Positions 614 to 60,902 of a DNA stretch of 64,000 bases are shown here, piece after piece (the first letter of the stretch is position 1; each line of letters starts with the position of its first letter). The position numbers and the translations under genes are program-made. The stretch spans positions 186,001-250,000 of the forward strand of contig MGPE01000005.1 in NCBI GenBank assembly GCA_001797335.1. Direction: 5' to 3'. Source of the stretch: Deltaproteobacteria bacterium GWA2_38_16. Its GTDB lineage: Bacteria > Bdellovibrionota > JACOXK01 > 2-02-FULL-40-11. The notes below the pieces were generated by a model, which was not told where the DNA came from, made no database searches, and saw only the letters and a list, made by a program, of their open reading frames with translations.

Positions 614-2020
614 ATGAAAAAAATATTTTTGATCATTATCGGTATCGGATGTTTTGGAAATCTTTTATCGTGTAAGTCATCTTTGCCTATTGAAAAAGCT
701 GTTCTAACTTTTGCTCCAGAAGTGCCGCCGGTGATTACGCGGACATCTCCAGCAAAAGTGATTGTTGATCTAGAGGTTCAAGAAGTGGTCAATCAACTGG
801 CCGATGGTGTTGAATATACGTTTTGGACATTTGGGGGGAAAGTTCCTGGGAAATTTATTCGAGTTCGAGAAGGAGATATCGTAGAGTTTCATTTGGCCAA
901 CCATCCTGCCAATAAGCTTCCTCATAATATTGATCTTCATGCAGTGACAGGGCCTGGTGGGGGCGCCACCAGTTCCTTTACAGCGCCTGGACATAAATCC
1001 CAATTTACATTTACAGCGTTAAACGCGGGTCTCTATGTATATCACTGTGCCACGGCTCCTGTAGGGATGCATGTGGCTAATGGCATGTATGGGCTTATTT
1101 ATGTGCAACCCAAAAAAGCGCTGCCTAAGGTGGATCGTGAATATTATGTTATGCAAGGAGATTTTTATACCAAGGGTGTTTTTAGTGAAAAAGGGCTTCA
1201 GCCCTTTTCCATGGAAAAGGCTATCGATGAAAAACCAAGCTATGTGGTGTTTAATGGGGCGGTGAATTCATTGGTGGGGGATAATGCACTGAAAGCCAAA
1301 GTAGGAGAAACCATTCGTTTATTTGTGGGAAATGGGGGGCCGAATTTGGTTTCGTCATTTCATGTTATTGGAGAAATTTTTGATAAAGTGTATCAAGAAG
1401 GAGGGACTTCCACTGTTCAGGAAAATGTTCAAACTACTTTAGTTCCCGCTGGAGGATCAGCCATTGTTGAATTTAGGATGGATGTTCCTGGAACTTTTAT
1501 TTTAGTTGATCACAGTATCTTTAGAGCATTTAATAAAGGAGCTTTGGGAATGCTTAAAGCGGAAGGGCCAGAAAATAAAGTCATTTATTCTGGAAAAGAG
1601 GTGGATGAAAATTATATTGAGAGCCAAGCACATCCCCAAGCAGGGTTAAAATCAGAACCGTCCCCTTTAAAAGCCGGGCGGAGTGGGGCTACTATTTTTG
1701 AAAATGTATGCGCCATGTGTCATCAACAAGAAGGACAAGGCCTTTCTGGCGTATTTCCTCCTTTGGCAAAATCAGACTATCTTTCTCATTTAGCCGTTAG
1801 AGATCGAGAGAAATTAGTATCTATTATTCTAAAAGGGTTATCGGGAAAAATTACCGTGAATGGAAAAGAGTATAATAATGTGATGACGCCTGTTTCAGGA
1901 CTTTCTGATGAAGAATTAGTAACCATCTTAAATTATATTATCAGTTCCTGGGGAAATTCTGGAAAACCATTTACTTTAGAGGAAGTGAAAAAAGCGAAAG
2001 AAAAAATTGAATCGAGATGA
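614..2020 (+). CDS. nirK: Copper nitrite reductase, AniA type, with C-terminal cytochrome c domain
   Basis: Reduces nitrite to nitric oxide in the periplasm. The start at 614 is chosen over an upstream in-frame ATG because AAGGAGGA precedes it and it gives a lipoprotein signal (LLSC, lipid Cys20). Two cupredoxin domains carry type 1 copper ligands H104, C145, H153, M158, type 2 ligands H109, H144, H300, and catalytic D107 and H250. The [11 protein letters not shown] loop is the class II (AniA-like) form. The C-terminal extension has a CxxCH heme site (366-370) and a distal Met, so electrons can arrive through a fused cytochrome c domain. 468 aa. The next gene overlaps by 4 nt. Two CRP/FNR-type palindromes lie upstream. 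Confidence 0.96.
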
Positions 2021-3162
2021 AAAAAAATATTTTCAGCCATTTTTTCTTGGCTGCTATTTTCATAGAGGGGGGAACATTTACCCCCTTCTATGGTTTGAAT
2101 AAAGATCAAAAAAGTGTATCCGTAAAATCTTTTCGTATAGATGATGCTCCTGTAACCAAGCAGCAATTTTTTAATCATGTCTCTAAGCGGGGGAATGTGC
2201 CGGTAACCTATGTGTCGTGGGATGATGCACAAGCGTATTGCAAGGCTCGGGGAGGCAGACTCCCCACTGTTTTTGAGTGGGAATATGTAGGCAGTGCCAG
2301 TGAGACTCAAAAAGATGCTTCGAAGGATCCAAAATTTATTCAAAAACTTTTAGAGTGGTATTCAAAGCCCGTTGATGAAGCTAAAATTCCAGAGGTTAAG
2401 CAGGGAAAACCCAATGTTTGGGGAGTGTACGACATGCATGGAGTGGTGTGGGAATGGGTCTATGATTTTAATAGTAGCTTTGTCACCGGAGATAATCGTC
2501 AGGATAAAGATAAACTCAAAGATTTGTTTTGTGGAGCAGGAGGAGAAGGTGCTCAAGACCGAATTAATTACGCAGCCTTTATGCGATATGCATTGAGAAG
2601 TAGTTTAAAAGCATCTTATAAACTTATGAATCTAGGATTTCGGTGTGCTTATGATGAAAAAAATCAGGACGAGAATATTCAAACGTCTCTTGATTTATCT
2701 CCCTATCGCTCTCATTTTGTGGTGATCACGATGACGTATACGAGCTGCCAATCGGCTTGTCCTTTGATTATAAAAAAATTAAAAACCATTTTAAAAGCAT
2801 TAGGGGGAGATATCCAAAATATTGAATTTGTGGTGGTGACGTTTGATCCAACTATTGACACAGCTTCTCATCTTTTAGAATACCAAAAAAAACAAGGTCT
2901 TGATTTTCAAAATTGGCATTTTTTAAGCGGTTCCGAAGAAGAAACCCGAAAGATGTCTTTATTTTTAGATATTTCTTATCAAAAAGATGCTACGACGGGG
3001 CACTTTATGCACAGCAATAAAATTATTCTTTTAAATCCTGAGGGTCAAAAGGTAGTAACCCTAGATGGTTTGGATTCTGATATTGAGCCACTTTTAAAAG
3101 CCATGGGTAAAACACCCAAAGCTTCTTTTTTCAAAAAACTTAAAAATTATTTTACCTTTTAA
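2017..3162 (+). CDS. NirV-like SUMF1 domain fused to SCO1/SenC copper chaperone
   Basis: Two domains in one 381-aa chain behind an N-terminal hydrophobic segment. Residues about 17-215 are a formylglycine-generating-enzyme (SUMF1) fold, with motifs [24 protein letters not shown] and a C-terminal NLGFRC. This is the family of NirV, a known partner of copper nitrite reductases. Residues about 230-375 are SCO1/SenC, with the copper motif C244-x3-C248 and the conserved His in the GHFMHS segment (H329/H332). It overlaps nirK by 4 nt, so the two are probably co-translated. Likely role: maturation or copper loading of the adjacent NirK (inference from the families). The 3' end overlaps the convergent gene by 11 nt. 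Confidence 0.88.
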
Positions 3163-4430: not shown

Positions 4431-4492
4431 TTTTATCTCTACCGAAATTGTGTAAATCTGCCACTTTAAGGCTTAAAAAATATGGAGGAAAT

Positions 4493-7400
4493 ATGACATA
4501 TATCAGCCGAAGAAAGTTTTTAAAAGGTTTGGGGGCAGTAGGGACGTTATTAACCTCAGAAACTGTCTTTGGATCTCCTCTTCGATATTTTAAGCCTACC
4601 CATGTAGAAAATCCCTTAGCATTTTATCCCAACCGGGATTGGGAAAAAGTATATCGAAATATTTTTAAACCTGATTCCACGTTTGTATTTTTGTGTGCTC
4701 CCAATGATACCCATAACTGTCTTTTAAAAGCGTATGTCAAAAATAATGTGGCGGTTCGAATAGGTCCTACTTATGGATATGGAAAAGCACAAGATCTCTA
4801 TGGGAATCAATCGTCTCATCGGTGGGATCCCAGGCTCTGTCAAAAAGGATTGGGATTAGTACGTAGGGTCTATGGGGATCGTCGTTTAAAATCCTCAATG
4901 ATTCGACAAGGATTTAAACAATGGGTAGAGGCTGGATTTCCCAGAGATCCCAAAACTGGAAAGCCGGATTTAAAATATTTTAATCGGGGACGAGATAAGT
5001 GGCTCAGAATTTCTTGGGATGAAGCATTTCAATTATCTGCCAAAGCTTTTTATAATATTGCACAAACCTATTCAGGCAAAGAAGGAGAAAAACGTTTAAA
5101 ACTTCAAGGTTATGATTCTGCGATGATTGAAGCGTTAGAAGGAGCAGGAACACAAACAATTAAAATCAGAGGGGGAATGGCATTTTTAGGATCTACACGA
5201 ATTTTTGGAATGTATCGATTTGCCAATATGCTTGCGCTTTTAGATAGCAAAATTCGAGGAGTTGGGCCAGATCACGCCGTAGGAGCCAGAGGGTGGGATA
5301 GTTATAGTTGGCATACAGATCTTCCACCAGGGCATCCCATGGTGACGGGTACTCAAACCAATGATTTTGATTTATTTGCCGTAGAACATTCAAAGCTTGC
5401 TATTGCCTGGGGGATGAATTGGATTACGACAAAAATGCCAGATTCCCATTGGTTGACGGAAGCCAGGCTCAAGGGAACTAAAACCGTGTCCATCACGGTT
5501 GAATACAGTGCAACGGCTTCTAAAACCGATGACGTGATTGTTATTCGTCCAGGAACAGATCCAGCCTTTGCATTGGGATTGGCCCAAGTGATTATATCTG
5601 AAAAACTCTATGATTTGGAGTTTGTATCCAAAAATACGGATCTTCCTTTTCTTATTCGATTAGATACCTTGGAGCCTCTTCGTCCCCAAGATATTATTCC
5701 GGGATATGTAGAGCCTCCTTTAAAAAATATTGTCTTTCTTAAAAAAGGAGAAAAACCCCCGGCAACCTCTACCCATCGCATTCAATATGCCACGGAAGAA
5801 ATGAAGGATTCTTTTAAACCGTTTGTGATTGTTGATCAAAAAACCAAAAAATTAACACCGGTGACGAGAGACTCGTTCAGATCGGCAGATTTGTTTTCCA
5901 GTCGAACGGTGAAACTTTTAAATGGGAAGGAAATAAAAGTACAAACCGTGTTTGGGTTAATGAGAGACTATGTAAATCAAAATTTTACGCCTAAACAAAC
6001 CGAACTTATTACTGGTGCTCCTGAAAAAGCAATTATCTTATTAGCCAAACAAATTGCGGCTAATCCAGAAAAAACACTTTTTGTGACGGGTATGGGTCCA
6101 AACCAATTTTTTAATTCTGATTTAAAAGATCGGGCCATCTTTTTTGTGGCAGCCTTAACGCGAAATATTGGATTTCCAGGGGGTAATGTAGGAAGTTATG
6201 CTGGAAATTATAGAGCAGCATTGATTGGGGGAGAGCCCGTATTTGCTGCCGAAGATCCCTTTCATGTGCAACTCGATCCCAAAGGTAAGGTCATTGTTAA
6301 AAAATATACGCATTATGAATCACTTCATTACTTTAATTATGGTGAGAGGCCGCTTAGGGGAGGGAAAACATTATTTACAGGGAAAAGTCATCTTCCAACT
6401 CCTACCAAAGCCATGTGGCTCAATAATTCTAACTCTGTCATCGGAAATATTAAGTGGCATTTTGATGTGGTGAATAACACGCTTCCAAAGCTAGAGTTTA
6501 TTGCATTTGCAGATTGGTGGTGGACGGGTTCTTGTGAGTATGCTGATATTGTTTTTGGCGTCGACAGTTGGGCGGAGTTTAAAGTGCCTGATATGTGTGC
6601 TTCCTGTACCAATCCTTTCCTTCATGTTTATCCCAGAACTCCTCTTCCCAGAATTTTTGATACGAAATCTGATATCGAAGTGATTGCAGGAGTATCAAAA
6701 GCGTTAGCCGAAGTAACCAATGATGCTCGAATGGTTGACATGTGGAAATTTGTTCATGAAGGGAATGTGCAAACATATCTTCAACGGATTATGGATCACT
6801 CTTTTACGCTCAAAGGGTATGATATTGATGATCTAGAGAAAAAAGCCCAAGAAGGAATTCCAACGCTCATGAATAATCGAACCTATCCTAGAATCTCTTC
6901 TTTTGAGCAGGCCACAGAAAAAGAACTTTGGTTTACGAAATCAGGTCGATTGGAATTTTATCGTCCTGAAAAAGAATTTATTGAGCATGGTGAAAATATG
7001 GTGGTGTATAGAGAACCTGTTGATTCAACGCCCTATGAACCCAATGTCATTGTAGCACATCCTCATGTGGCCATTCGTCCTAAAGGGCCCGAAGCACATG
7101 GGATGCAGTCGAGTGATCTTTCGTGTGAAAGTCGCCAAGTGCGAAATGTGATCAAAACGCCAGAAGAAGTAGTCAAAACAGAGCATCCTCTGCGTTCCAA
7201 AAAATTTACTCACATTTATCATACGCCCAAATATCGACATGGAGCACACACGACTCCTGTTGATACTGATTTTACGGGAGTATGGTTTGGCCCTTTTGGT
7301 GATATTTATCGGCACGACAAACGTCAAGCCTCCGTGACCGAAGGATATGTAGATATAAATCCTTTAGATGCCAAAGAACTGGGGATTGAAGATGGGGATT

Positions 7401-7936
7401 ATGTGCATATAGATGCTGATCCCCAAGATCGTCCTTATAGAGGATGGAAAAAAGGGACTGAGTCTTATCATGTGGGGAGACTCCTTCTCAGGGCTCGTTA
7501 TTATCCAGGGACTCCCAGGGGAGTAGCTCGGACTTGGCACAATATGTATGGAGCTACTTTTGGAAGTGTGAAAGCTCATGAAACCCGGCCCGATGGACTC
7601 GCTAAAAATCCAGAGACAAATTACCAATCCATGTATCGCTATGGCAGTCATCAAAGTGCCACCCGGGCATGGCTACGGCCAACACTTATGACAGAAACAT
7701 TGGTGAGAAAAGAAATGTTTGGAAATCAAATGGGCAAAGGATTTGCTGCAGATATTCATTGTCCCGTCGGAGCGCCTCGGGAAGCGTTTGTTAAAATTTC
7801 TAAAGCTGAGAACGGGGGATTGGGAGGAAAAGGAAAGTGGGGGCCGGCACAGCTTGGATTTCGTCCCACCTATGAAAATGTAGCGATGAAGGAATATCTT
7901 AAAGGAAAATTTATGAAACGAAAGAAGGAGATGTAA
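4493..7936 (+). CDS. Periplasmic NarG/NxrA-type molybdopterin oxidoreductase, catalytic subunit
   Basis: 1147 aa, type II DMSO-reductase family; interconverts nitrate and nitrite at a Mo-bisMGD centre. The start at 4493 follows GGAGGA and yields a twin-arginine signal (SRRKFLK, residues 5-11), so export is in folded form. By alignment with NarG, the FS0 cluster ligands would be C68, D72, C76 and C116; Asp at the second position and the ND-T-H context are typical of the NxrA/periplasmic Nar branch. The Mo ligand is probably D276 in TDLPPG. Motifs such as [12 protein letters not shown] and EYSATASK also point to that branch. It heads an operon with the Fe-S, heme and chaperone genes. The direction in vivo is unproven; with NirK beside it, nitrate reduction is more likely. 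Confidence 0.92.
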
Positions 7937-7939
7937 AGC

Positions 7940-9070
7940 ATGGCAACAGTAAAAAATTGGCAACTGGATCGCCAAATGGATTATCCCTATGAAGAGCACC
8001 GACCTAAAAAACAATGGGCCATTGTTTTTGATTTAAATAAATGCATTGGATGTCAAACCTGTTCCTTGGCCTGTAAAACCACTTGGACCAGTGGCAAAGG
8101 CCAAGAATATATGTTTTGGAATAATGTGGAAACAAAACCTTGGGGCAGCTATCCCCTGGCGTGGGATGTCCGAGTACTTGAAAAATTGGGATATCAACAC
8201 TGGGATAAAAATAAACCCTATTCCGGAAAAACCGTTTTTGAAGCTGCTGATCCAGCAGAAAAAGCGGTTCATTTTAATCCTCAAGATGAAGATTGGATGT
8301 ATCCAAACCGAGGAGAAGATGATTGTACAGGAAATGTCTCGGGTGGAAAATATTTGACATTACCCCACGACAATTGGTTTTTTTATCTTCCCAGAACCTG
8401 TGCACATTGTACCTATCCTGCCTGTTTAGCAGCCTGCCCCAGAAAAGCGATTTATAAACGAGAAGAAGATGGTATTGTTCTGATCGATCAATCACGATGC
8501 AAAGGATACCAAGAATGTGTCAGGGCCTGTCCCTATAAAAAGTCTATGTATAATCCCTATACCCGAGTGAGTGAAAAATGTGTGGGGTGTTATCCGGCGG
8601 TAGAAGAGGGAAAGCAACCCATGTGTGTTCAAAATTGCATTGGGAAAATTCGTATTATGGGATTTATTAATCCTCCCTGGAATGCCAGAGAAGATAATCC
8701 TGTTGATTATCTGGTTCACAAAAAAGAATTAGCACTCCCGTATTATCCTCAGTTGGGACTTGAGCCGAATATTTATTATGTTCCTCCCATTCATGCCAAT
8801 CGGGAGTATTTAATTCAGATGTTTGGCCCAAAAGTAGAGGAGGTCATTGAAAATTATAAAAAAATTAAAAATGATCCTATTACCCAGGGACTTTTAGTGC
8901 TGATGGGATCTACGGATAATATTATTCATCGTTTTAAAGTTTCTGAGGGATCAGCATATGCTTTTGATGAAAAAGGGGATCAAATTGTGAGAGTTCCAGT
9001 CACAGAGCCTTTATTTATTCGAACCCCTTGGGATGAAAAACTGGGCGTTATTCGAAATAATACGCCCTAA
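7940..9070 (+). CDS. NarH/NxrB-type iron-sulfur subunit
   Basis: 376 aa electron-transfer subunit passing electrons between the molybdoenzyme and the heme subunit. Four Cys groups are visible: CIGCQTCSLAC near residue 40, CAHCTYPACLAAC, CKGYQECVRACP, and a CVGCY...CVQNC group near residue 215, matching the four-cluster NarH plan. It has no signal peptide of its own and so would be carried across the membrane with the Tat-tagged catalytic subunit, as known for this family. It starts 3 nt after the upstream stop, with AAGGAGATG as ribosome-binding site at the end of that gene. Confidence 0.93.
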   Translation: MATVKNWQLDRQMDYPYEEHRPKKQWAIVFDLNKCIGCQTCSLACKTTWTSGKGQEYMFWNNVETKPWGSYPLAWDVRVLEKLGYQHWDKNKPYSGKTVFEAADPAEKAVHFNPQDEDWMYPNRGEDDCTGNVSGGKYLTLPHDNWFFYLPRTCAHCTYPACLAACPRKAIYKREEDGIVLIDQSRCKGYQECVRACPYKKSMYNPYTRVSEKCVGCYPAVEEGKQPMCVQNCIGKIRIMGFINPPWNAREDNPVDYLVHKKELALPYYPQLGLEPNIYYVPPIHANREYLIQMFGPKVEEVIENYKKIKNDPITQGLLVLMGSTDNIIHRFKVSEGSAYAFDEKGDQIVRVPVTEPLFIRTPWDEKLGVIRNNTP

Positions 9071-9089
9071 GAAAGAAGGTGTGAGGGGA

Positions 9090-9974
9090 ATGATGAAGAA
9101 AATTTATGCTTTAATGGTTGTAAGTTATCTTTTATGGGGCCAGGGACTTTGGGCCGAAGGACTTATTGCAAAATATGTTAAAGAGGATCTCTCTAAACTA
9201 AATCTTGAAGCACTGTTTTGGAAAGAGGTTACTCCAGAGACCATTCAGCTGATAGCTCAGCCCATGGTGGCCCCACGTCCTCAAAAAACATTGACGGAAA
9301 AACTTTGGGTACAAGTGGTTCATAATGGAGAGTGGATGGCGTTTCGATTTAAATGGAAAGACAAAGAGAAGAGCGAAGCAGGACCTTTGGGTAAATTTTC
9401 GGATGCAGTGGCCATTCAATTTCCAGTGAAAGAAAAAGAAGTGCCCCCGATTTTTATGGGAGCCAAGGATAGCCCCGTTCATATTTTGCATTGGAGAGCA
9501 CAGTATCAAAAAGACAAAGAAAAAGGATTCCAAACGATGAAAGATATTTATCCCAATATGAATATGGATATGTATCCTTTAGAATTTGCCAATCAATATT
9601 CTCATGATGAGATGTTGAAAAAAATCACTGAGGAACAAAGAGAAGTGTTTGTGTCTGGAAAATCTGCTGGAAACCCTCAATCATTTCAAAAAATAAAAGG
9701 GGTGGATGAGATGATGGCCGAAGGTTTTGGTTCCAGTTCTGTCATTGAAAATACGAGAGCAGAAGCTCAGGGGATATGGCAAAAAAAAGGAAAAGAAGGA
9801 GAATGGGTAGTGCAAATTTCTCGGCCCTTAGCTTTAGAAGGGGGATCTATCTTGAAAGCAGGGCAAAAAAGTTTTATGGCCTTTGCTGTGTGGCAGGGCG
9901 GAGAAGGGGAAGTGGGATGTCGAAAATCTGTGACGATGACCTGGGTACCCTTAATAATTGAGGATAAAAAATGA
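9090..9974 (+). CDS. Type II DMSO-reductase family heme-b subunit (NxrC/DdhC/EbdC-like)
   Basis: 294 aa. The start at 9090 follows GAGGGG and gives a Sec signal peptide (MMKKIYALMVVSYLLWG). The mature part resembles the ethylbenzene-dehydrogenase heme-b (gamma) subunit family: an early LFWKEV segment, a LWVQVVHNGEWMAFRFKWKD strand pair and a DAVAIQFP segment, with Met and Lys residues available as axial heme ligands. It is soluble, unlike the membrane NarI, which agrees with a periplasmic complex handing electrons to or from a cytochrome c pool. It overlaps the following chaperone gene by 4 nt. Confidence 0.85.
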   Translation: MMKKIYALMVVSYLLWGQGLWAEGLIAKYVKEDLSKLNLEALFWKEVTPETIQLIAQPMVAPRPQKTLTEKLWVQVVHNGEWMAFRFKWKDKEKSEAGPLGKFSDAVAIQFPVKEKEVPPIFMGAKDSPVHILHWRAQYQKDKEKGFQTMKDIYPNMNMDMYPLEFANQYSHDEMLKKITEEQREVFVSGKSAGNPQSFQKIKGVDEMMAEGFGSSSVIENTRAEAQGIWQKKGKEGEWVVQISRPLALEGGSILKAGQKSFMAFAVWQGGEGEVGCRKSVTMTWVPLIIEDKK

Positions 9975-14780: not shown

Positions 14781-15892
14781 TTATCAGCAGTGTCGTTAAT
14801 GCCTGATCCCTTGGTATAATTAATATCGTATCCTAATTTGAGGAGCATATTATCAGAGCATCGATATCCCCCACCAAAAGAATATCGGGAGTAAACGTTG
14901 GCCGTAACACTATTTAAAGAAGCGGTGGTAGAAGCCCCTCTTAGTTTAATGGTACTAACGCGACCGGCCAGATAAAAATGAGACAAGACGTTCCATACAT
15001 CCGGTAAATTCCATAATGATTCTACAAAACCAAAATGAGCTTGTCTTTTTTGAGCATTCCCGCCGGTAGATCCATCTTTAAAAGCACCCAAAGAAAATCT
15101 AAAAAATGCCTGGCTATCAGAATATGCAGGAGGATTTAAAGGTTTTTTGCCTTTGCCTAAATCATATCTAAAATCTATTTCTGCCACCTGCCTTGTCCAA
15201 TTTGTTGCACCGCTAGCAGGAGCTGTAATTCCTGCAATAGACATGTCTGCTGAAGATGCTTTTAATTTTCCAGAATGGTAGTAACTGGTGCTGATAAAGA
15301 GAGGATCTATCGGAGTGTAAAATAATCTTCCTAAAAAAGATTTTCCTTGGCCAGAATCCGATCCTACAACACTATTTCCATTTCCGACGGCTACAACCCA
15401 TATTTTCCCTGATAGCTCTATCCCCTCATCGGTGACGCCTACGTTTGCAGCTGAGTTAGAAGGAAGGATGCCTTCAACGACGTTATTGGTTTGGGTTTCT
15501 TCTCCAAAGGGCTGTTTAAATCTTCCCAGTCTGCCGCTTACATTAAACCACGTATTTCTTAAAGCGGGAATAAAATCTTTGGCTTGTAAAAATAAATAAT
15601 CGACTAAAGGAGTGTTGTTCCCCCCATTATTTAAATTAAATCGAAAAGTAGCAGAATTGAAATCATCTGCCTGGAACATAAACACCAATTTTGCTTCAGG
15701 TACTTCAAAAGAACCACTTCTAAAGCTAGAGGTTTGTCCTTGGGAATTATAAAAAGCACTTGCAGCTCTTCCGCTGAGCTTTAATTTAGAAAGCAGATTT
15801 GAAAGATCAACTTTGGGAGATTCTTCCCCATAGGCAAATGGGGATATGAATAAAGAAATTAAAATAATTGTTATGATGGAGTGTGGCTTCAT
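14747..15892 (-). CDS. Outer-membrane beta-barrel porin
   Basis: 381 aa. The start at 15892 overlaps the moaE stop (ATGA) and gives a Sec signal peptide ending near FAYGEE. The mature chain has alternating hydrophobic strands, Gly/Ser/Asn-rich loops and a C-terminal strand ending in Phe (SLVASLRF), the classic outer-membrane insertion signal. A segment GRLGRFKQPFGEETQTNN resembles phosphate-selective/OprP-like porins. It is co-directional with moaD and moaE behind a shared CRP/FNR operator, which suggests a channel for nitrate, nitrite or molybdate (inference). The 3' end is the target of the MNT-HEPN cassette. Confidence 0.8.
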   Translation of the reverse strand: MKPHSIITIILISLFISPFAYGEESPKVDLSNLLSKLKLSGRAASAFYNSQGQTSSFRSGSFEVPEAKLVFMFQADDFNSATFRFNLNNGGNNTPLVDYLFLQAKDFIPALRNTWFNVSGRLGRFKQPFGEETQTNNVVEGILPSNSAANVGVTDEGIELSGKIWVVAVGNGNSVVGSDSGQGKSFLGRLFYTPIDPLFISTSYYHSGKLKASSADMSIAGITAPASGATNWTRQVAEIDFRYDLGKGKKPLNPPAYSDSQAFFRFSLGAFKDGSTGGNAQKRQAHFGFVESLWNLPDVWNVLSHFYLAGRVSTIKLRGASTTASLNSVTANVYSRYSFGGGYRCSDNMLLKLGYDINYTKGSGINDTADNLLSLVASLRF

Positions 15893-16281
15893 AGAGTAAT
15901 CCTTTCTTCTTTCCAGATGGGAGCTTGTTTTTTTAATTCGGCAATGACGTATTCGCAGGCTTTGAAACACTCTTTTCGATGTTCACCGGTAACGCCCATC
16001 CAAACCGCAATTTCTCCGAGTTGTAAGGTTCCTGTTCGATGATGAACATGAATGTCTAAAACAGAAAATTCTTTTTTGGCTTTATCAATTATTTTTTTTA
16101 TTTCTTTAATCGCCATGGGCGTATAAGCTTCGTAATGGAGTTCTTTTACTTTTTTTCCTTTGTTCCATTGCCGAACCCAGCCTTCAAAGCTGACATAAGC
16201 GCCTGCCATGATATTTTTTCTTAATTTTTTAGAATGTATTGTGGGATTTAAAGGTTTGGTCCAAATTTTAACGATGGACAT
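15889..16281 (-). CDS. moaE: Molybdopterin synthase catalytic subunit MoaE
   Basis: 130 aa. MoaE moves sulfur from the MoaD thiocarboxylate onto precursor Z (cPMP) to make molybdopterin. Family motifs are clear: GAYVSFEGWVR near residue 27, LHYEAY, VHHRTGTLQLGE and the C-terminal PIWKEE with the conserved Lys. It follows moaD by 6 nt and overlaps the porin start by 4 nt. Confidence 0.95.
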   Translation of the reverse strand: MSIVKIWTKPLNPTIHSKKLRKNIMAGAYVSFEGWVRQWNKGKKVKELHYEAYTPMAIKEIKKIIDKAKKEFSVLDIHVHHRTGTLQLGEIAVWMGVTGEHRKECFKACEYVIAELKKQAPIWKEERITL

Positions 16282-16287
16282 AGTGTT

Positions 16288-16530
16288 TTATCCTCCTGCA
16301 ACCGGAGGAATAAAACACACGGTATCCCCTTCTTTAAGAGAGGTATTAAAATGAGTATATGCTTCATTAATGGCAGCGGAAAGATAGGGAGTATCCAAAA
16401 AATGAGGATATTTTTTCTTAAGTTCCTGATGGAGTTCTAAAAGAGTGCTTTGATTGGGAAGGTCTATTTTTTCTTCTTTTTTTTGAGTGATGGTTTTTAA
16501 ATGAGCAAAATATAATACATTTACTTTCAT
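16288..16530 (-). CDS. moaD: Molybdopterin synthase sulfur carrier MoaD
   Basis: 80 aa, ubiquitin-like fold with the C-terminal Gly-Gly (PPVAGG) that is adenylated and turned into a thiocarboxylate. I start it at ATG 16530 because the next residues (KVNVLYFAHLK) match the usual first strand; an in-frame ATG at 16554 is possible. It is the first gene of moaD-moaE-porin, divergent from mobA-moaA, with the shared operator at 16566-16581. The activating partner is the MoeB-like protein at 20302-21426. Confidence 0.92.
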   Translation of the reverse strand: MKVNVLYFAHLKTITQKKEEKIDLPNQSTLLELHQELKKKYPHFLDTPYLSAAINEAYTHFNTSLKEGDTVCFIPPVAGG

Positions 16531-16623: not shown

Positions 16624-18177
16624 ATGAGCCATCATATAACATTAGCTATTTTAGTGGGGGGGGCTTCTCGTCGAATGGGGACTTCTCAAGACAAAGGGCT
16701 TTTATCTGTCCATGGGGAGGCTTTAGTTTATCGTCTCATTAGAAAACTTTCTTTTTTATTTCAAGAAATCTTAATTATTTGTTCTTCGGAAACTCAAAAA
16801 CAAAAATATGATTTCGTGCTCGGAATGACACCTCAGATTATTGTGGATGAAAGTGGGAGTGATCGAGCGGCGTATTATGGACTGTGTGCAGCGCTTAAAC
16901 AGAGTTCCACAGAAAAAGTGTTGGTGATTCCGGTAGATGCTCAAGGGGTGGATCCAGGTGTTATTAAAAAACTTCTATTGTCTCCCTCATTTCCTGTTGC
17001 CTATGAAAATACACCTTTCCCATCGGTGTGGCTCAAACAACATTTATCTTTTGTCATTCCGAGCACGAAGTGCGAGGAATCCCTAAGTATTTTAGATCTT
17101 TTGAAAAAACTTTCTACGACCTGGATACGTCCCACAGAGTGTGAAGACATACTTTTAAAAATGAATTTAAATACGAGAGAAGATGTTCGAAACTATTTTG
17201 GAGAGCCTCTGTGCGATTCTTGGGGGAGACAATTAAATTACTTAAGACTTTCTCTAACTGAATCGTGCAACATGGCATGCCAATATTGCTTGCCCAAAGG
17301 TTTTCATCAATCAACCCATGAACAGATGCTGACTCAAACCGCCCAGGTTATTTTAAAAGCGTTTCGAAAGTTAGGGTTTGAAAAAGTGCGTTTTACTGGC
17401 GGTGAGCCTACGCTTCATCCGGGACTTTTGTATCTTATTTCGGATGCTCGGTCCTTGGGATACGAAACTATTTCTCTCACTACCAATGGAAGTTTTATTC
17501 AAGATCTTACGTCTTTAATAGAGGCTGGGCTTACCCATATCAATATCAGTTTAGATACCCTAGATCCTACGACATTTCAAAAACTTACAGGGAGTCATTA
17601 TCTATCTAAAATTTTGGGTCTTATTGATGAGGCCTTAGAGAAGGGATTAAATGTAAAATTGAATACGGTTCTTCTTCGGGAGATTAATTTAAATCACATA
17701 GAACCATTACTCCATTGGGCGAAAGATCGCCCCTTAACCCTTCGGTTTATTGAACTTATGCCAATTCAAAATCACACAGAGTTTTTTAACAGAAATTTTG
17801 TTTCAAATACCGAAATTCAGTCTTTGGTTCGATCGTTGGGGTATGCGCCTATCTGTCATCCCCGACTTGATCGGGGATCCATGGAACCTTTAGGCCCCGC
17901 GGTTTTGTGGTCTCATCCAGAGTTTTTGGCCAAAGTAGGTTTTATCAGTCCTTGGTCGTGTAATTTCTGTGATCGCTGCAATCGATTGCGGGTGACTGCC
18001 AGAGCACATCTTCGTTTATGTTTATTTGGAAAAGAAGAGATAAAACTTCCGGCAGAACAAGGAGATGAAGTGGTGAGTCAATTTATTCGATCGGTTCTTC
18101 ATCAAAAGCCCCTCTCGCATGATTTAGAAAAAGGGGATAGAGGAAGTTTAAGTTATTTTAAAGTAGTGGGAGGATAA
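16624..18177 (+). CDS. MobA-MoaA fusion: molybdenum cofactor guanylyltransferase and GTP 3',8-cyclase
   Basis: 517 aa joining the last and first steps of Mo-bisMGD synthesis. Residues 1-190 are MobA (ILVGGASRRMG nucleotide loop, DKG, later NLNTREDV). Residues about 195-517 are MoaA: radical-SAM cluster C215-x3-C219-x2-C222, a GGEPTLHPG segment, and the C-terminal cluster motif FCDRCNRLRVTARAHLRLC. Two different palindromic repeats sit in frame: one in the MobA part (residues VIPSTKCEES) and one in the MoaA part (CHPRLDRGSM), adding about ten residues each at loop positions. Followed by moaC after 3 nt. Confidence 0.93.
   Translation: MSHHITLAILVGGASRRMGTSQDKGLLSVHGEALVYRLIRKLSFLFQEILIICSSETQKQKYDFVLGMTPQIIVDESGSDRAAYYGLCAALKQSSTEKVLVIPVDAQGVDPGVIKKLLLSPSFPVAYENTPFPSVWLKQHLSFVIPSTKCEESLSILDLLKKLSTTWIRPTECEDILLKMNLNTREDVRNYFGEPLCDSWGRQLNYLRLSLTESCNMACQYCLPKGFHQSTHEQMLTQTAQVILKAFRKLGFEKVRFTGGEPTLHPGLLYLISDARSLGYETISLTTNGSFIQDLTSLIEAGLTHINISLDTLDPTTFQKLTGSHYLSKILGLIDEALEKGLNVKLNTVLLREINLNHIEPLLHWAKDRPLTLRFIELMPIQNHTEFFNRNFVSNTEIQSLVRSLGYAPICHPRLDRGSMEPLGPAVLWSHPEFLAKVGFISPWSCNFCDRCNRLRVTARAHLRLCLFGKEEIKLPAEQGDEVVSQFIRSVLHQKPLSHDLEKGDRGSLSYFKVVGG
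17053..17082. repeat. In-frame palindromic element in the MobA domain
   Basis: Element GTCATTCCGAGCACGAAGTG and onward to GGAATCC. Arms ATTCC (17056-17060) and GGAAT (17076-17080), with an inner GCAC/GTGC hairpin. It has the same GTCATTC start as the other repeats but a different centre. It is translated as VIPSTKCEES without breaking the frame. Confidence 0.8.
17855..17880. repeat. In-frame palindromic element in the MoaA domain
   Basis: Arms ATCCCCGA (17858-17865) and TCGGGGAT (17871-17878) around CTTGA. It is translated as CHPRLDRGS just before the PLGPAVLW segment of MoaA, where normal MoaA proteins have a short loop. The centre and reading frame match the element in the parB-like gene. 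Confidence 0.88.
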
Positions 18178-18180
18178 AAA

Positions 18181-18645
18181 ATGGGAGATTTTACTCATTT
18201 AAAAAAGGGAAAAGCCGTGATGGTGGATGTGACACAAAAAACTCCATCTGAGAGGATTGCAAAAAGTAAAGCTCATGTACAAACAGGATCTATCAATCTT
18301 AAAAAAGAATTATCTCAAAAAGCACAGCAAGAATTGGCCTTAACTATTCGACTTTCGGCGATTCAAGCGGCTAAAAAAACATCTGAACTTATTCCTCTAT
18401 GTCATCCTTTGTCTTTAAGTTTTGTAGAGTGTGAGGTGGAATTTAAGGAAAATAAAATTTTAATAATCTGTACGGCTAAAACAAAAAATACAACGGGGGT
18501 TGAAATGGAAGCTATGGTGGGAGCCTCGATCGGAGCATTAACGGCCTATGACATGATTAAGTCCAAGTGTCGTGATACATCGATTGAAAAAATTGAGTTA
18601 GTCTATAAAGAAGGAGGAAAATCAGGCGTATGGAAAAGAACATAA
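18181..18645 (+). CDS. moaC: Cyclic pyranopterin monophosphate synthase MoaC
   Basis: 154 aa. MoaC converts the MoaA product into cPMP. Motifs: MVDVTQKTPSERIAKS, the PLCHPLSLSFVE segment with catalytic His, and KNTTGVEMEAMVGASIGALT with the conserved Lys/Glu; a GKSGVW tail. It lies in the middle of the rightward Moco operon and overlaps the next gene by 16 nt. Confidence 0.96.
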   Translation: MGDFTHLKKGKAVMVDVTQKTPSERIAKSKAHVQTGSINLKKELSQKAQQELALTIRLSAIQAAKKTSELIPLCHPLSLSFVECEVEFKENKILIICTAKTKNTTGVEMEAMVGASIGALTAYDMIKSKCRDTSIEKIELVYKEGGKSGVWKRT

Positions 18646-19130
18646 CATCCTATGTTATTGTGAGTTCTGATCGAGCATCCCAGGGAACCTATGAAGATAA
18701 GGCAGGCCCTGCTGCCCAAAATTGGCTGTGTAGCAATGGGTATAAAAATAAAGGAGTTGTCATTATCCCTGATAATCCAAAAATTCTTCGAGATAAACTT
18801 TTGGAGATATTAGAGACGGTAGACGTTGTGGTGGTGAGCGGAGGAACGGGTTTAGGCCCTCGGGATATTACTCCTCAAACATTACGTGATCTCTCAGACT
18901 ATGAAATTCCAGGATTTGGAGAAAGATTAAGACAAGAAAGTTTAAAATATTCTTTGAATAGTTATTTATCCCGGTGTGGAGGGTATGTGAAAAATGATAA
19001 ACTTATTTTAGCCCTGCCAGGAAATCCAAAAGCGGTGACAGAGCAACTTGATATTCTTTCAGAACTTCTTCCCAATGCGGTGTGTGCGCTTCGAGGGGAA
19101 TGTAAACATAGGAATCGAACATCCTCATGA
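18630..19130 (+). CDS. Molybdopterin adenylyltransferase (MogA/MoaB family)
   Basis: 166 aa. It activates molybdopterin with AMP before metal insertion by MoeA. The signature GGTGLGPRDITP, the start YVIVSSDRASQG and the C-terminal LPGNPKAV segment are typical. MogA and MoaB cannot be told apart safely from motifs alone. It overlaps moaC by 16 nt and moeA by 4 nt. Confidence 0.93.
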   Translation: MEKNITSYVIVSSDRASQGTYEDKAGPAAQNWLCSNGYKNKGVVIIPDNPKILRDKLLEILETVDVVVVSGGTGLGPRDITPQTLRDLSDYEIPGFGERLRQESLKYSLNSYLSRCGGYVKNDKLILALPGNPKAVTEQLDILSELLPNAVCALRGECKHRNRTSS

Positions 19131-20314
19131 TTACCTACGAAGAAGCCTTAGCTTTATTTTCACGCCTTCCGTCGATAAAAGAGGTTACTACAGTACCTCT
19201 TCAAAAATCATTGGGATGTGTATTGGCCAAAGATCTTTTGGCTCCTTGTTCACTCCCACTTTTTAACAATAGTGCGATGGATGGGGTGGCGCTTCGATTA
19301 TCAGATCTTCGATCTGAAATCAGGATAGCAGGAACGAGATTGGCTCAAAGGGTGAAAGATTCATTAGATCATCCTCGCACGAAAGCCATTCGAATCATGA
19401 CGGGAGCCAAAGTGCCTTCCTGGGCAGAACTGGTGGTTCCGATAGAGAAGATTGAAGGGATCAAAGAAAATGTTATTCGAGTGGCAGCCGGTTTATTTAA
19501 TAAAGGAGAGAACATTCGTTTTTCTGGAGAAGATTATCAAAAAGGAGAGCTTATTTTTAAAAAAGGGCACTTCTTAAATGCAGAGGCGTTGATGGTATTG
19601 GCCAATTTTGGAATTCAAAAAGTAGAGGTATTTAAAAAGCCGGCTCTCTGGCTTTTAACGACGGGAAATGAAGTAAAGCGTGTAGGCTCCAAGCTTTTTG
19701 ATGGGGAAATTTATAATTCTTCTCAAATTTATTTAAAGACAAAAATAAGAGAATTAGAACTGCCTCTTAAAAAATATATTCATATGAAGGATCAAAAAGA
19801 AAAACTAAAGTCTTTTTTAAAAACATGGCTAAAGTCCAAAGGTCCCTCCCTTTTGGTGACAACCGGAGCCGTATCGATGGGAGATAAAGATGATTTTCCA
19901 AAACTGGCCCAGGAACTGGGGCTTCATCTTTATTTTCATAAAGTAGCTATTCGCCCTGGAAAGCCCGTTTTATTTTGCTCGGATGAAAAAGATCACTATT
20001 GGATTGGAGCGCCAGGGAATGCTATTGCCACAGCTGTTGCCTGGACATTTTTTGTAAGGCCTTTTTTACACAGCTGGGGGAAGTTTCCTTTGCCCCACAC
20101 TACTCAAGTGACTCTTGCCGAGGATTTTAAAAAGCCCCTTGGGATTAAAACTTTTTTTAGAGGATATTGTGATGGAGAAAAAGTTATCTTAGCCAAAGAT
20201 CAAGGCTCTCAGCGGATGAAAGCATCTGCCACAAGTAATGTGTTTGTGGAGCTTCGCCAAGATCAGGAGGTGGTGATTCAGGGTAGCAAAGTCACCTGTA
20301 CATGGTTATGTTAA
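19127..20314 (+). CDS. moeA: Molybdopterin molybdenumtransferase MoeA
   Basis: 395 aa. It inserts molybdate into adenylated molybdopterin. Family segments in order: NNSAMDGVALR near residue 46, IMTGAKVP, TTGNEV, LLVTTGAVSMGDKDD and the RPGKPVLF...GAPGNAIATAV block, followed by the small C-terminal barrel. The length is normal. It overlaps the preceding gene by 4 nt and the following MoeB-like gene by 13 nt. Confidence 0.95.
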   Translation: MITYEEALALFSRLPSIKEVTTVPLQKSLGCVLAKDLLAPCSLPLFNNSAMDGVALRLSDLRSEIRIAGTRLAQRVKDSLDHPRTKAIRIMTGAKVPSWAELVVPIEKIEGIKENVIRVAAGLFNKGENIRFSGEDYQKGELIFKKGHFLNAEALMVLANFGIQKVEVFKKPALWLLTTGNEVKRVGSKLFDGEIYNSSQIYLKTKIRELELPLKKYIHMKDQKEKLKSFLKTWLKSKGPSLLVTTGAVSMGDKDDFPKLAQELGLHLYFHKVAIRPGKPVLFCSDEKDHYWIGAPGNAIATAVAWTFFVRPFLHSWGKFPLPHTTQVTLAEDFKKPLGIKTFFRGYCDGEKVILAKDQGSQRMKASATSNVFVELRQDQEVVIQGSKVTCTWLC

Positions 20315-21426
20315 AACGATATCGACCTCATCTTTTACTCTCTGGTTTTGGACTAGAAGAGCAAAAAAAATTACACTCAGCCAAGGTTTTGGTTATTGGA
20401 GCTGGAGGATTAGGATGCCCTTTGCTTTTATATTTAACGGCAGCAGGAGTGGGAACCATCGGCATTGTCGATAGTGATTCTGTAGAAGAAAGTAATCTCC
20501 AACGCCAAATTTTATATACGGAAGCAGATCTTGGAAAATTAAAGGTCGATGTTGCTCGAAAAAGACTTTCTTTGTTAAATTCCAAGACGGAATTTGTACT
20601 CTATCCCCATCGGTTTACAGTACAGAATGCTTTAGAAATCATAAAACCCTATGATGTTATTTGCGATGGCACGGATAATTTTCAAACTCGTTATATGATT
20701 AATGATGCCTGTGTCCTTCTTAATAAACCGGATGTCTATGCTTCTATTTTTCAATTTGAAGGGCAGGTGACGGTATTTAATTATGTTAATAAAGAGGGAG
20801 TAAGAGGCCCTCATTACAGGGATCTTTTTCCCGTATTTCCTCCTCAAGATCTTCTCCCTAATTGTGAAGCAGCAGGGGTGCTCGGAGTTTTGCCAGGAAT
20901 CATGGGGACGATTCAAGCCAATGAAGTGATTAAAATCATTACAGGAATAGGAGAAGTACTTTCCGGTAGACTTTTAACGATGAATACCCTAAACTTTGAA
21001 ACTCATATTTTAACGTTACCCAACGCTAAAGGAGGACAAACGATGGTGACTAAATTAGAAGAAAATCCACAAGCTTCATGTTGCGAAATTGGGAAAGGGA
21101 AAAAAGAGGTTCCTGAAGTGACGGTTCAAGAATTAAAAGCCAAAAGAGATCATCATGAAAATTTTCAATTGATCGATGTCAGAGAAAAAAATGAATATGA
21201 ATTTGTGAATATTCAAGGAGATCTTATTCCTCTGGGAGAGCTTGAACGTTCACTTTCTAAAATTTCTAAGGAAAAAACAGTGATTGTGCATTGCCGAAGT
21301 GGTGGGAGAAGTTCTCAGGCTGTGAAGCTTTTACGAGAAAAATTTGGGTATACCAATGTCTATAATCTAAAAGGCGGAATTCTAGCCTATATAGATGAAA
21401 TTGATCCTTCCTTACCTAAATACTAG
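20302..21426 (+). CDS. MoeB/ThiF-type MoaD-activating enzyme with C-terminal rhodanese domain
   Basis: 374 aa. Residues 1-260 are an E1-like adenylyltransferase (GAGGLGCPLLLYL nucleotide site, SNLQRQILY, CDGTDNFQTRY). Residues about 270-374 are a rhodanese domain with the persulfide Cys in VHCRSGGRS. The fusion, known from MoeZ/MOCS3-type proteins, can both adenylate and sulfurate the MoaD C-terminus. The spacer contains a CC pair (ASCCEIG). It may use ATG 20302 or 20308. It is the last gene of the rightward Moco operon, 23 nt before the operator of the next unit. Confidence 0.9.
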   Translation: MVMLKRYRPHLLLSGFGLEEQKKLHSAKVLVIGAGGLGCPLLLYLTAAGVGTIGIVDSDSVEESNLQRQILYTEADLGKLKVDVARKRLSLLNSKTEFVLYPHRFTVQNALEIIKPYDVICDGTDNFQTRYMINDACVLLNKPDVYASIFQFEGQVTVFNYVNKEGVRGPHYRDLFPVFPPQDLLPNCEAAGVLGVLPGIMGTIQANEVIKIITGIGEVLSGRLLTMNTLNFETHILTLPNAKGGQTMVTKLEENPQASCCEIGKGKKEVPEVTVQELKAKRDHHENFQLIDVREKNEYEFVNIQGDLIPLGELERSLSKISKEKTVIVHCRSGGRSSQAVKLLREKFGYTNVYNLKGGILAYIDEIDPSLPKY

Positions 21427-60740: not shown

Positions 60741-60766
60741 GTCATCCCCGATCAGATCGGGGATCT
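60741..60766. repeat. GTCAT palindromic element, intergenic
   Basis: GTC, then arms ATCCCCGATC (60744-60753) and GATCGGGGAT (60755-60764) around a single A. It lies 16 bases before the start of the half-size TSUP gene (minus strand), so it may be within its leader. Confidence 0.88.
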
Positions 60767-60840
60767 AGTTTTATAGACATTATATGCTGGGGAGTGTAAA
60801 TTTTAAATGACTATTTTTTAAAAAAATATTAACATTTTTT

Positions 60841-60902
60841 GTCATTCCCGCGAAAGCGGGAATCTATAAGAATGGATCCCCCGGTCAAGCCGGGGGATGA
60901 CA
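60841..60902. repeat. Composite double-hairpin repeat bounded by GTCAT and ATGAC
   Basis: Two palindromes head to head. The first has arms ATTCCCGC/GCGGGAAT (60844-60851, 60856-60863); the second has arms ATCCCCCGG/CCGGGGGAT (60876-60884, 60890-60898). The whole is framed by GTCAT at the left and ATGAC at the right. The remainder of 60725-60935 is AT-rich with no gene. Confidence 0.88.

Follow-up and report, generated by a model that had tools for sequence, protein, structure and literature searches.

How short palindromic DNA comes to lie, in frame, inside the gene of a cofactor enzyme, and what it does to the protein, is the question raised by this locus. The window (the whole stretch of 64 000 nucleotides that was analysed) belongs to a genome of 2.0 Mb, called G000 here, which was compared with relatives of its family (G001, G003 and G004) and with further genomes where indicated.

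The fusion gene and its neighbours

The initial annotation had described the gene as a union of MobA and MoaA whose frame and cluster cysteines had survived two insertions; the union, the frame and the cysteines were borne out. A single uninterrupted ORF of 517 codons (Table 1) gave Pfam matches for both halves. The NTP_transf_3 match (PF12804) covered residues 8–118 with 67 bits against a cut-off of 27, and alignment to MobA extended the MobA-like NTP transferase domain to about residues 5–190. Radical_SAM and Mob_synth_C were matched over residues 210–500, both above the Pfam cut-offs, and residues 196–517 form the MoaA radical-SAM domain plus its C-terminal domain. Among solved structures, the first part is closest to MobA 2e8b and the second to MoaA 1tv7. 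The MoaA signatures CxxxCxxC, CxxC-x13-C and C-terminal GG were all found: the cluster cysteines are kept as CNMACQYC and CDRC-x13-C (CDRCNRLRVTARAHLRLC), and the protein ends in KVVGG. The MoaA half scored 279 bits with TIGR02666 (cut-off 284), and the MobA half 48 bits with TIGR02665, below the cut-off of 152. In the MobA half, the nucleotide-binding motif GG-x-S-x-RMG-x-DK (VGGASRRMGTSQDKG) contains two extra residues, the loop reading RMGTSQDKG in G000 vs RMGQDKG in G001, where the motif is standard. These residues (TS, window 16657–16690) are also extra relative to G004 and, by eye, are not derived from the repeat described below. PVDAQG stands where E. coli MobA reads PCDTP in the alignment. 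A single-sequence AlphaFold model of the fusion protein had a mean pLDDT of 40.5.

The only strong MoaA match in G000 is the fusion gene. Its MobA half is the best PF12804 match; five other proteins were matched which, judged by frame length, we take to resemble sugar or other nucleotidyltransferases.

Table 1. Positions in the window of the fusion gene, its palindromic pieces and the adjacent cofactor genes
Feature	Position	Strand	Description
mobA-moaA fusion gene	16624..18177	+	517 aa; ORF, Pfam, alignment and fused orthologues
Relic C	16810..16830	-	inverted copy of element A without 9 nt of one arm, GATT[CCTCGCACT]TCGTGCTCGGAATGACA
Element A	17052..17083	+	interrupted-stem palindromic repeat, TGTC-ATTCC-GA-GCAC-GAA-GTGC-GA-GGAAT-CCC
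Element B	17854..17881	+	TGTC-ATCCCCGA-CTTGA-TCGGGGAT-CCA; CGTC-type REP
moaE	15889..16281	-	family search
moaD, divergent neighbour	16299..16530	-	TIGR01682, 65.7 bits
moaC	18181..18645	+	family search
molybdopterin adenylyltransferase-like (mogA/moaB family)	18630..19130	+	family search
moeA	19127..20314	+	family search
moeB with rhodanese domain	20302..21426	+	family search

The gene lies within a complete moaDE / moaC / mog / moeA / moeB cluster (Table 1). Upstream, at 4448–9974, an operon of the type II DMSO-reductase family encodes alpha, beta and gamma subunits of 1162, 376 and 313 aa, which scored below the cut-off of every NCBIfam model matched; the operon is possibly nitrite-oxidoreductase-like. 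Enzymes of this family use the guanylylated cofactor. Further upstream, a copper nitrite reductase gene was found at 536–2020, and at 2017–3162 a formylglycine-generating-enzyme-like domain and a SCO1/SenC-like domain are, by eye, seemingly joined in one ORF.

The distribution of the fusion was surveyed in 240 genomes of the phylum (E up to 1e-20). A match was encoded by 64 of them, and fusion to a MobA-like part was found only in G000, G001 and G004, the MoaA frames elsewhere in the survey being at most 427 aa long. The G001 orthologue (505 aa, 60% identity) lies on one contig; that of G004 (60–61% identity) is interrupted at a contig break whose ends share 23 nt. In G003, separate mobA- and moaA-like genes were found on one contig. 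Other fused cofactor proteins are known (MobA-MobB, PRK14489; MoaC-MobA, PRK14500; MoaC-MoaB, PRK03604; MobB-MoeA, PRK14491). They likewise join two cofactor-biosynthesis enzymes covalently, but their pairings differ from MobA-MoaA, which was not found among the NCBIfam models listed or in the literature searched. The MobA-MoaA fusion is unusual, and we found no earlier description of it.

The gene is under purifying selection. Nei-Gojobori estimates for G000 vs G001 gave a dN of about 0.38 and a dS of 1.4–2.0 (about 1.7), alike in both domains; dN/dS was about 0.2 to 0.3 in each, with dS near saturation. Both halves are therefore constrained. These values, together with its standing as the sole strong MoaA match, give no sign that the gene is inactive, an outcome that would have told against the initial annotation. 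From its sequence, the gene can be read as encoding a working bifunctional molybdenum-cofactor enzyme, whose MoaA half would convert GTP to the pterin precursor and whose MobA-like half would attach GMP to the finished cofactor.

Palindromic pieces within the fusion gene

Two palindromes, each credited with about ten added residues and placed one to a domain, had been noted. Both are real: GTCATTCCGAGCACGAAGTGCGAGGAATCCC at 17053–17083 (element A) and GTCATCCCCGACTTGATCGGGGATCC at 17855–17880 (element B) were each found with 0 mismatches, and 100 versions of the window with shuffled dinucleotides gave no match to either. They encode the peptides given for them, VIPSTKCEES (residues 144–153) for A and CHPRLDRGS(M) (residues 411–419/420) for B. 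When folded as single-stranded DNA, A reached −5.6 kcal/mol (z −2.5) and B −8.4 kcal/mol (z −3.1).

The count of two had to be raised. A third piece, relic C, was found in the MobA domain, which holds A as well, so that only B lies in the MoaA domain. The sequence of relic C, GATTTCGTGCTCGGAATGACA, is the reverse complement of element A minus nine bases; it is in frame and encodes DFVLGMT (residues 63–69). Its last 18 nt were returned by the repeat finder as an exact inverted match (16813–16830 vs 17052–17069). The hairpin is lost, and folding was no better than that of shuffles. Relic C is most simply read as a decayed inverted copy, whose partner would be element A, 221 nt away.

A, B and relic C are all missing from the fused orthologues of G001 and G004, and no repeat remnant was seen in the alignment of the mobA-moaA loops of these two genomes. 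A relative that keeps the residues but has no DNA palindrome would have spoken against an insertion; G001 and G004 lack both. The gain in length was overstated, however. Measured between conserved flanks against G001 and G004, the net gain is +5 aa for A, +4 for B and +2 for relic C. Since these gains are smaller than the elements themselves, the elements replaced about half their own length of loop sequence; the loop residues would have been lost by deletion at insertion or afterwards. In the alignment to 2e8b and 1tv7, A and B lie in length-variable regions between conserved blocks, and these loops are probably surface-exposed.

The chance that a gene of this size holds two or more elements was put at about 0.0002–0.002 per gene, over well over 1000 genes. 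A special cause for the three pieces was considered and is not needed, as argS, pdhC and aroE also hold several.

A dispersed repeat family and its known counterparts

Copies of the repeat were searched with the pattern GTCATYCC-N6..30-GGRATC, and the reversed pattern was used as a control. The pattern was found 80 times in G000, 52 times each in G001 and G002 and 70 times in G003; the control gave 0 matches in these four genomes. An upstream T is favoured (53 of the 80 copies in G000), and most copies in G000 end in GGRATC-Y-A. Many show paired arm changes across the hairpin (ATCC/GGAT, ATTCC/GGAAT, CCGG/CCGG and others). Seven copies in G000 share the identical GTCATCCCCGACTTGATCGGGGATC of element B. 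The core of element A has two exact copies in G002, so A too is a repeat, of a related subtype.

Some 20 of the 80 copies are located well within ORFs, where they are read in both orientations and in no fewer than five of the six frames. By eye, we take the products of the host ORFs to be HutI, HolB, ArgS, MiaA, CtaA, TilS, NnrD, LysA, PdhC, AroE, QueA, an ActB-like protein, XerC and Mfd. In aroE (L077, 4698–5612), two elements abut in opposite orientations, and a further element-like stretch (VILSAAKNL) lies upstream.

The CGTC REPs described by Di Nocera et al. (2013) have a CGTC/TGTC tag, an 8–9-bp stem starting with AT, a 4–5-nt loop and a CCA tail; they are dispersed, some are intragenic, and they were reported without a dedicated transposase (PMC3733652). 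Element B is a CGTC REP in every one of its features: TGTC at 17854–17857, a stem of 8 bp, a loop of 5 nt, CCA at 17879–17881 and a dispersed distribution. Element A falls outside this layout, with a stem of 5 + 4 bp, a GA/GA mismatch and a 3-nt loop. The repeats studied here also differ from the CGTC REPs in host lineage, and their in-gene copies are mostly single short units.

The RPE-4/6 elements of Rickettsia have been termed CGTC REPs as well (PMC3733652). Like RPE-4, RPE-6 and RPE-7, the present repeats carry the ATGAC/GTCAT motif and lie in frame in housekeeping genes, queA (tRNA ribosyltransferase-isomerase) being a host in both cases. The in-gene insertions of Rickettsia are listed at about 84–192 bp (PMC3767692), whereas the units here are single, 24–34 nt long, and often replace loop residues. 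For RPE-4/6/7, different elements were reported near the same site in orthologues, and the choice between hot spots and a common origin was left open (PMC3767692). Palindromes that code in frame are met here beyond Rickettsia, in a lineage whose several relatives at different distances allow insertion, replacement and decay to be followed in the same loops.

Origin of the in-gene copies

The best reading, which we hold to be probable, is that selfish, REP-like repeats have settled in surface loops of a bifunctional enzyme that still works, the insertions being neutral and tolerated, with selection filtering them for frame. It is supported by the dispersed family, the absence of the elements from orthologues, the kept frame, the constraint on the gene and the partial replacement of loop residues. 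Repeats of the CGTC/GTCAT type would have entered loops of the fusion gene at least twice, and probably three times, after the split from the nearest relatives, and the inverted copy, relic C, would later have lost 9 nt in frame. Insertion may have been undirected, or driven by some factor acting on hairpin DNA. Selection would then keep those copies that lie in tolerant loops and change the length by a multiple of three.

The sites themselves were compared at fourteen other element-bearing genes between G000 and G001–G004. The net length change at in-gene elements, relative to G001, ranged from −5 to +14 residues (median +4), which rules out that every one of them is a clean insertion of 9–10 residues. 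Plain insertions were seen where the loops of the relatives are short (tilS +12, xerC +9, queA +13, mfd +8), the insert being simply missing there. At other genes, the corresponding loop of a relative has an element of its own: in miaA of G001, where the stem is of 11 bp and the orientation opposite, in aroE of G003 and in argS of G004. Weaker remnants, recognized by eye, occupy the same loop in argS, nnrD and lysA of G001, and pdhC shows a half-motif. The loci at which relatives from other genera have an element or a remnant of their own are L141, L149, L118, L140, L117 and L109.

Such recurrent occupancy in other genera counts against purely random insertion. The loop sites might be ancestral or hot spots, with one early entry, after which the core was exchanged, inverted or eroded separately in the different genera. 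The three strict coincidences (about 0.1 expected, by a rough estimate from element densities and site-relative pairs), the weaker remnants and the same pattern in RPE-4/6/7 (PMC3767692) point that way. Against it, the mobA-moaA loops of G001 and G004 are free of remnants, the relatives have no insert in tilS, xerC, mfd and queA, and tolerant loops alone would raise the rate of coincidence too. As an account of the fusion gene this is possible, although on balance doubtful. In its broader form, the proposal is that certain protein loops in this lineage house GTCAT-type palindromes over long periods; the palindromes would be renewed, inverted or exchanged between genera, often replacing residues while the protein remains functional. 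This is put forward tentatively; if it is true, RPE-4/6/7 would have an independent counterpart outside Rickettsia and Wolbachia. The phenomenon is a known one in a further lineage, and the repeated occupation of loops across genera is a more interesting lead than the fusion gene. The case also adds the MobA-MoaA fusion; it does not by itself reveal a new mechanism.

The divergence of the MobA half, the insertion in its nucleotide loop and PVDAQG suggest that this half may have lost or changed its activity; it also holds two of the three pieces derived from the repeat. If it were degenerate, MoaA activity alone would matter. We consider this unlikely: constraint is no weaker on the MobA half than on the MoaA half (pN 0.297 vs 0.301), no other protein of the genome matches PF12804 better, and the window encodes an enzyme of the DMSO-reductase family, a user of the guanylylated cofactor.

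It is also rather improbable that the repeats are REPs which owe their mobility to a RAYT/Y1 transposase, present or past in the lineage. In G000 a single Y1_Tnp gene was detected, a broken one at L108 (C19:6497–6840), and Y1_Tnp genes were found in G003, G004 and G007. However, no clear GTCATYCC...GGRATC repeats flank the Y1_Tnp genes examined in G000 and its relatives, the repeats lack the GTAG tag that marks RAYT-associated REPs, and CGTC REPs themselves have been reported with no transposase of their own (PMC3733652). Selection of the inserted peptides for a function such as regulation, stability or domain spacing is very improbable: several elements with intact palindromes do persist in essential genes, but unrelated proteins contain translations of the repeat from at least five frames and both orientations, and the orthologues of the fusion enzyme lack it. 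So many sense and antisense readings suggest that the added residues serve no function in themselves.

Elsewhere in the window, at 60741–60901, three palindromic repeats of different subtypes and in both orientations lie within 160 nt, outside ORFs of at least 80 aa.
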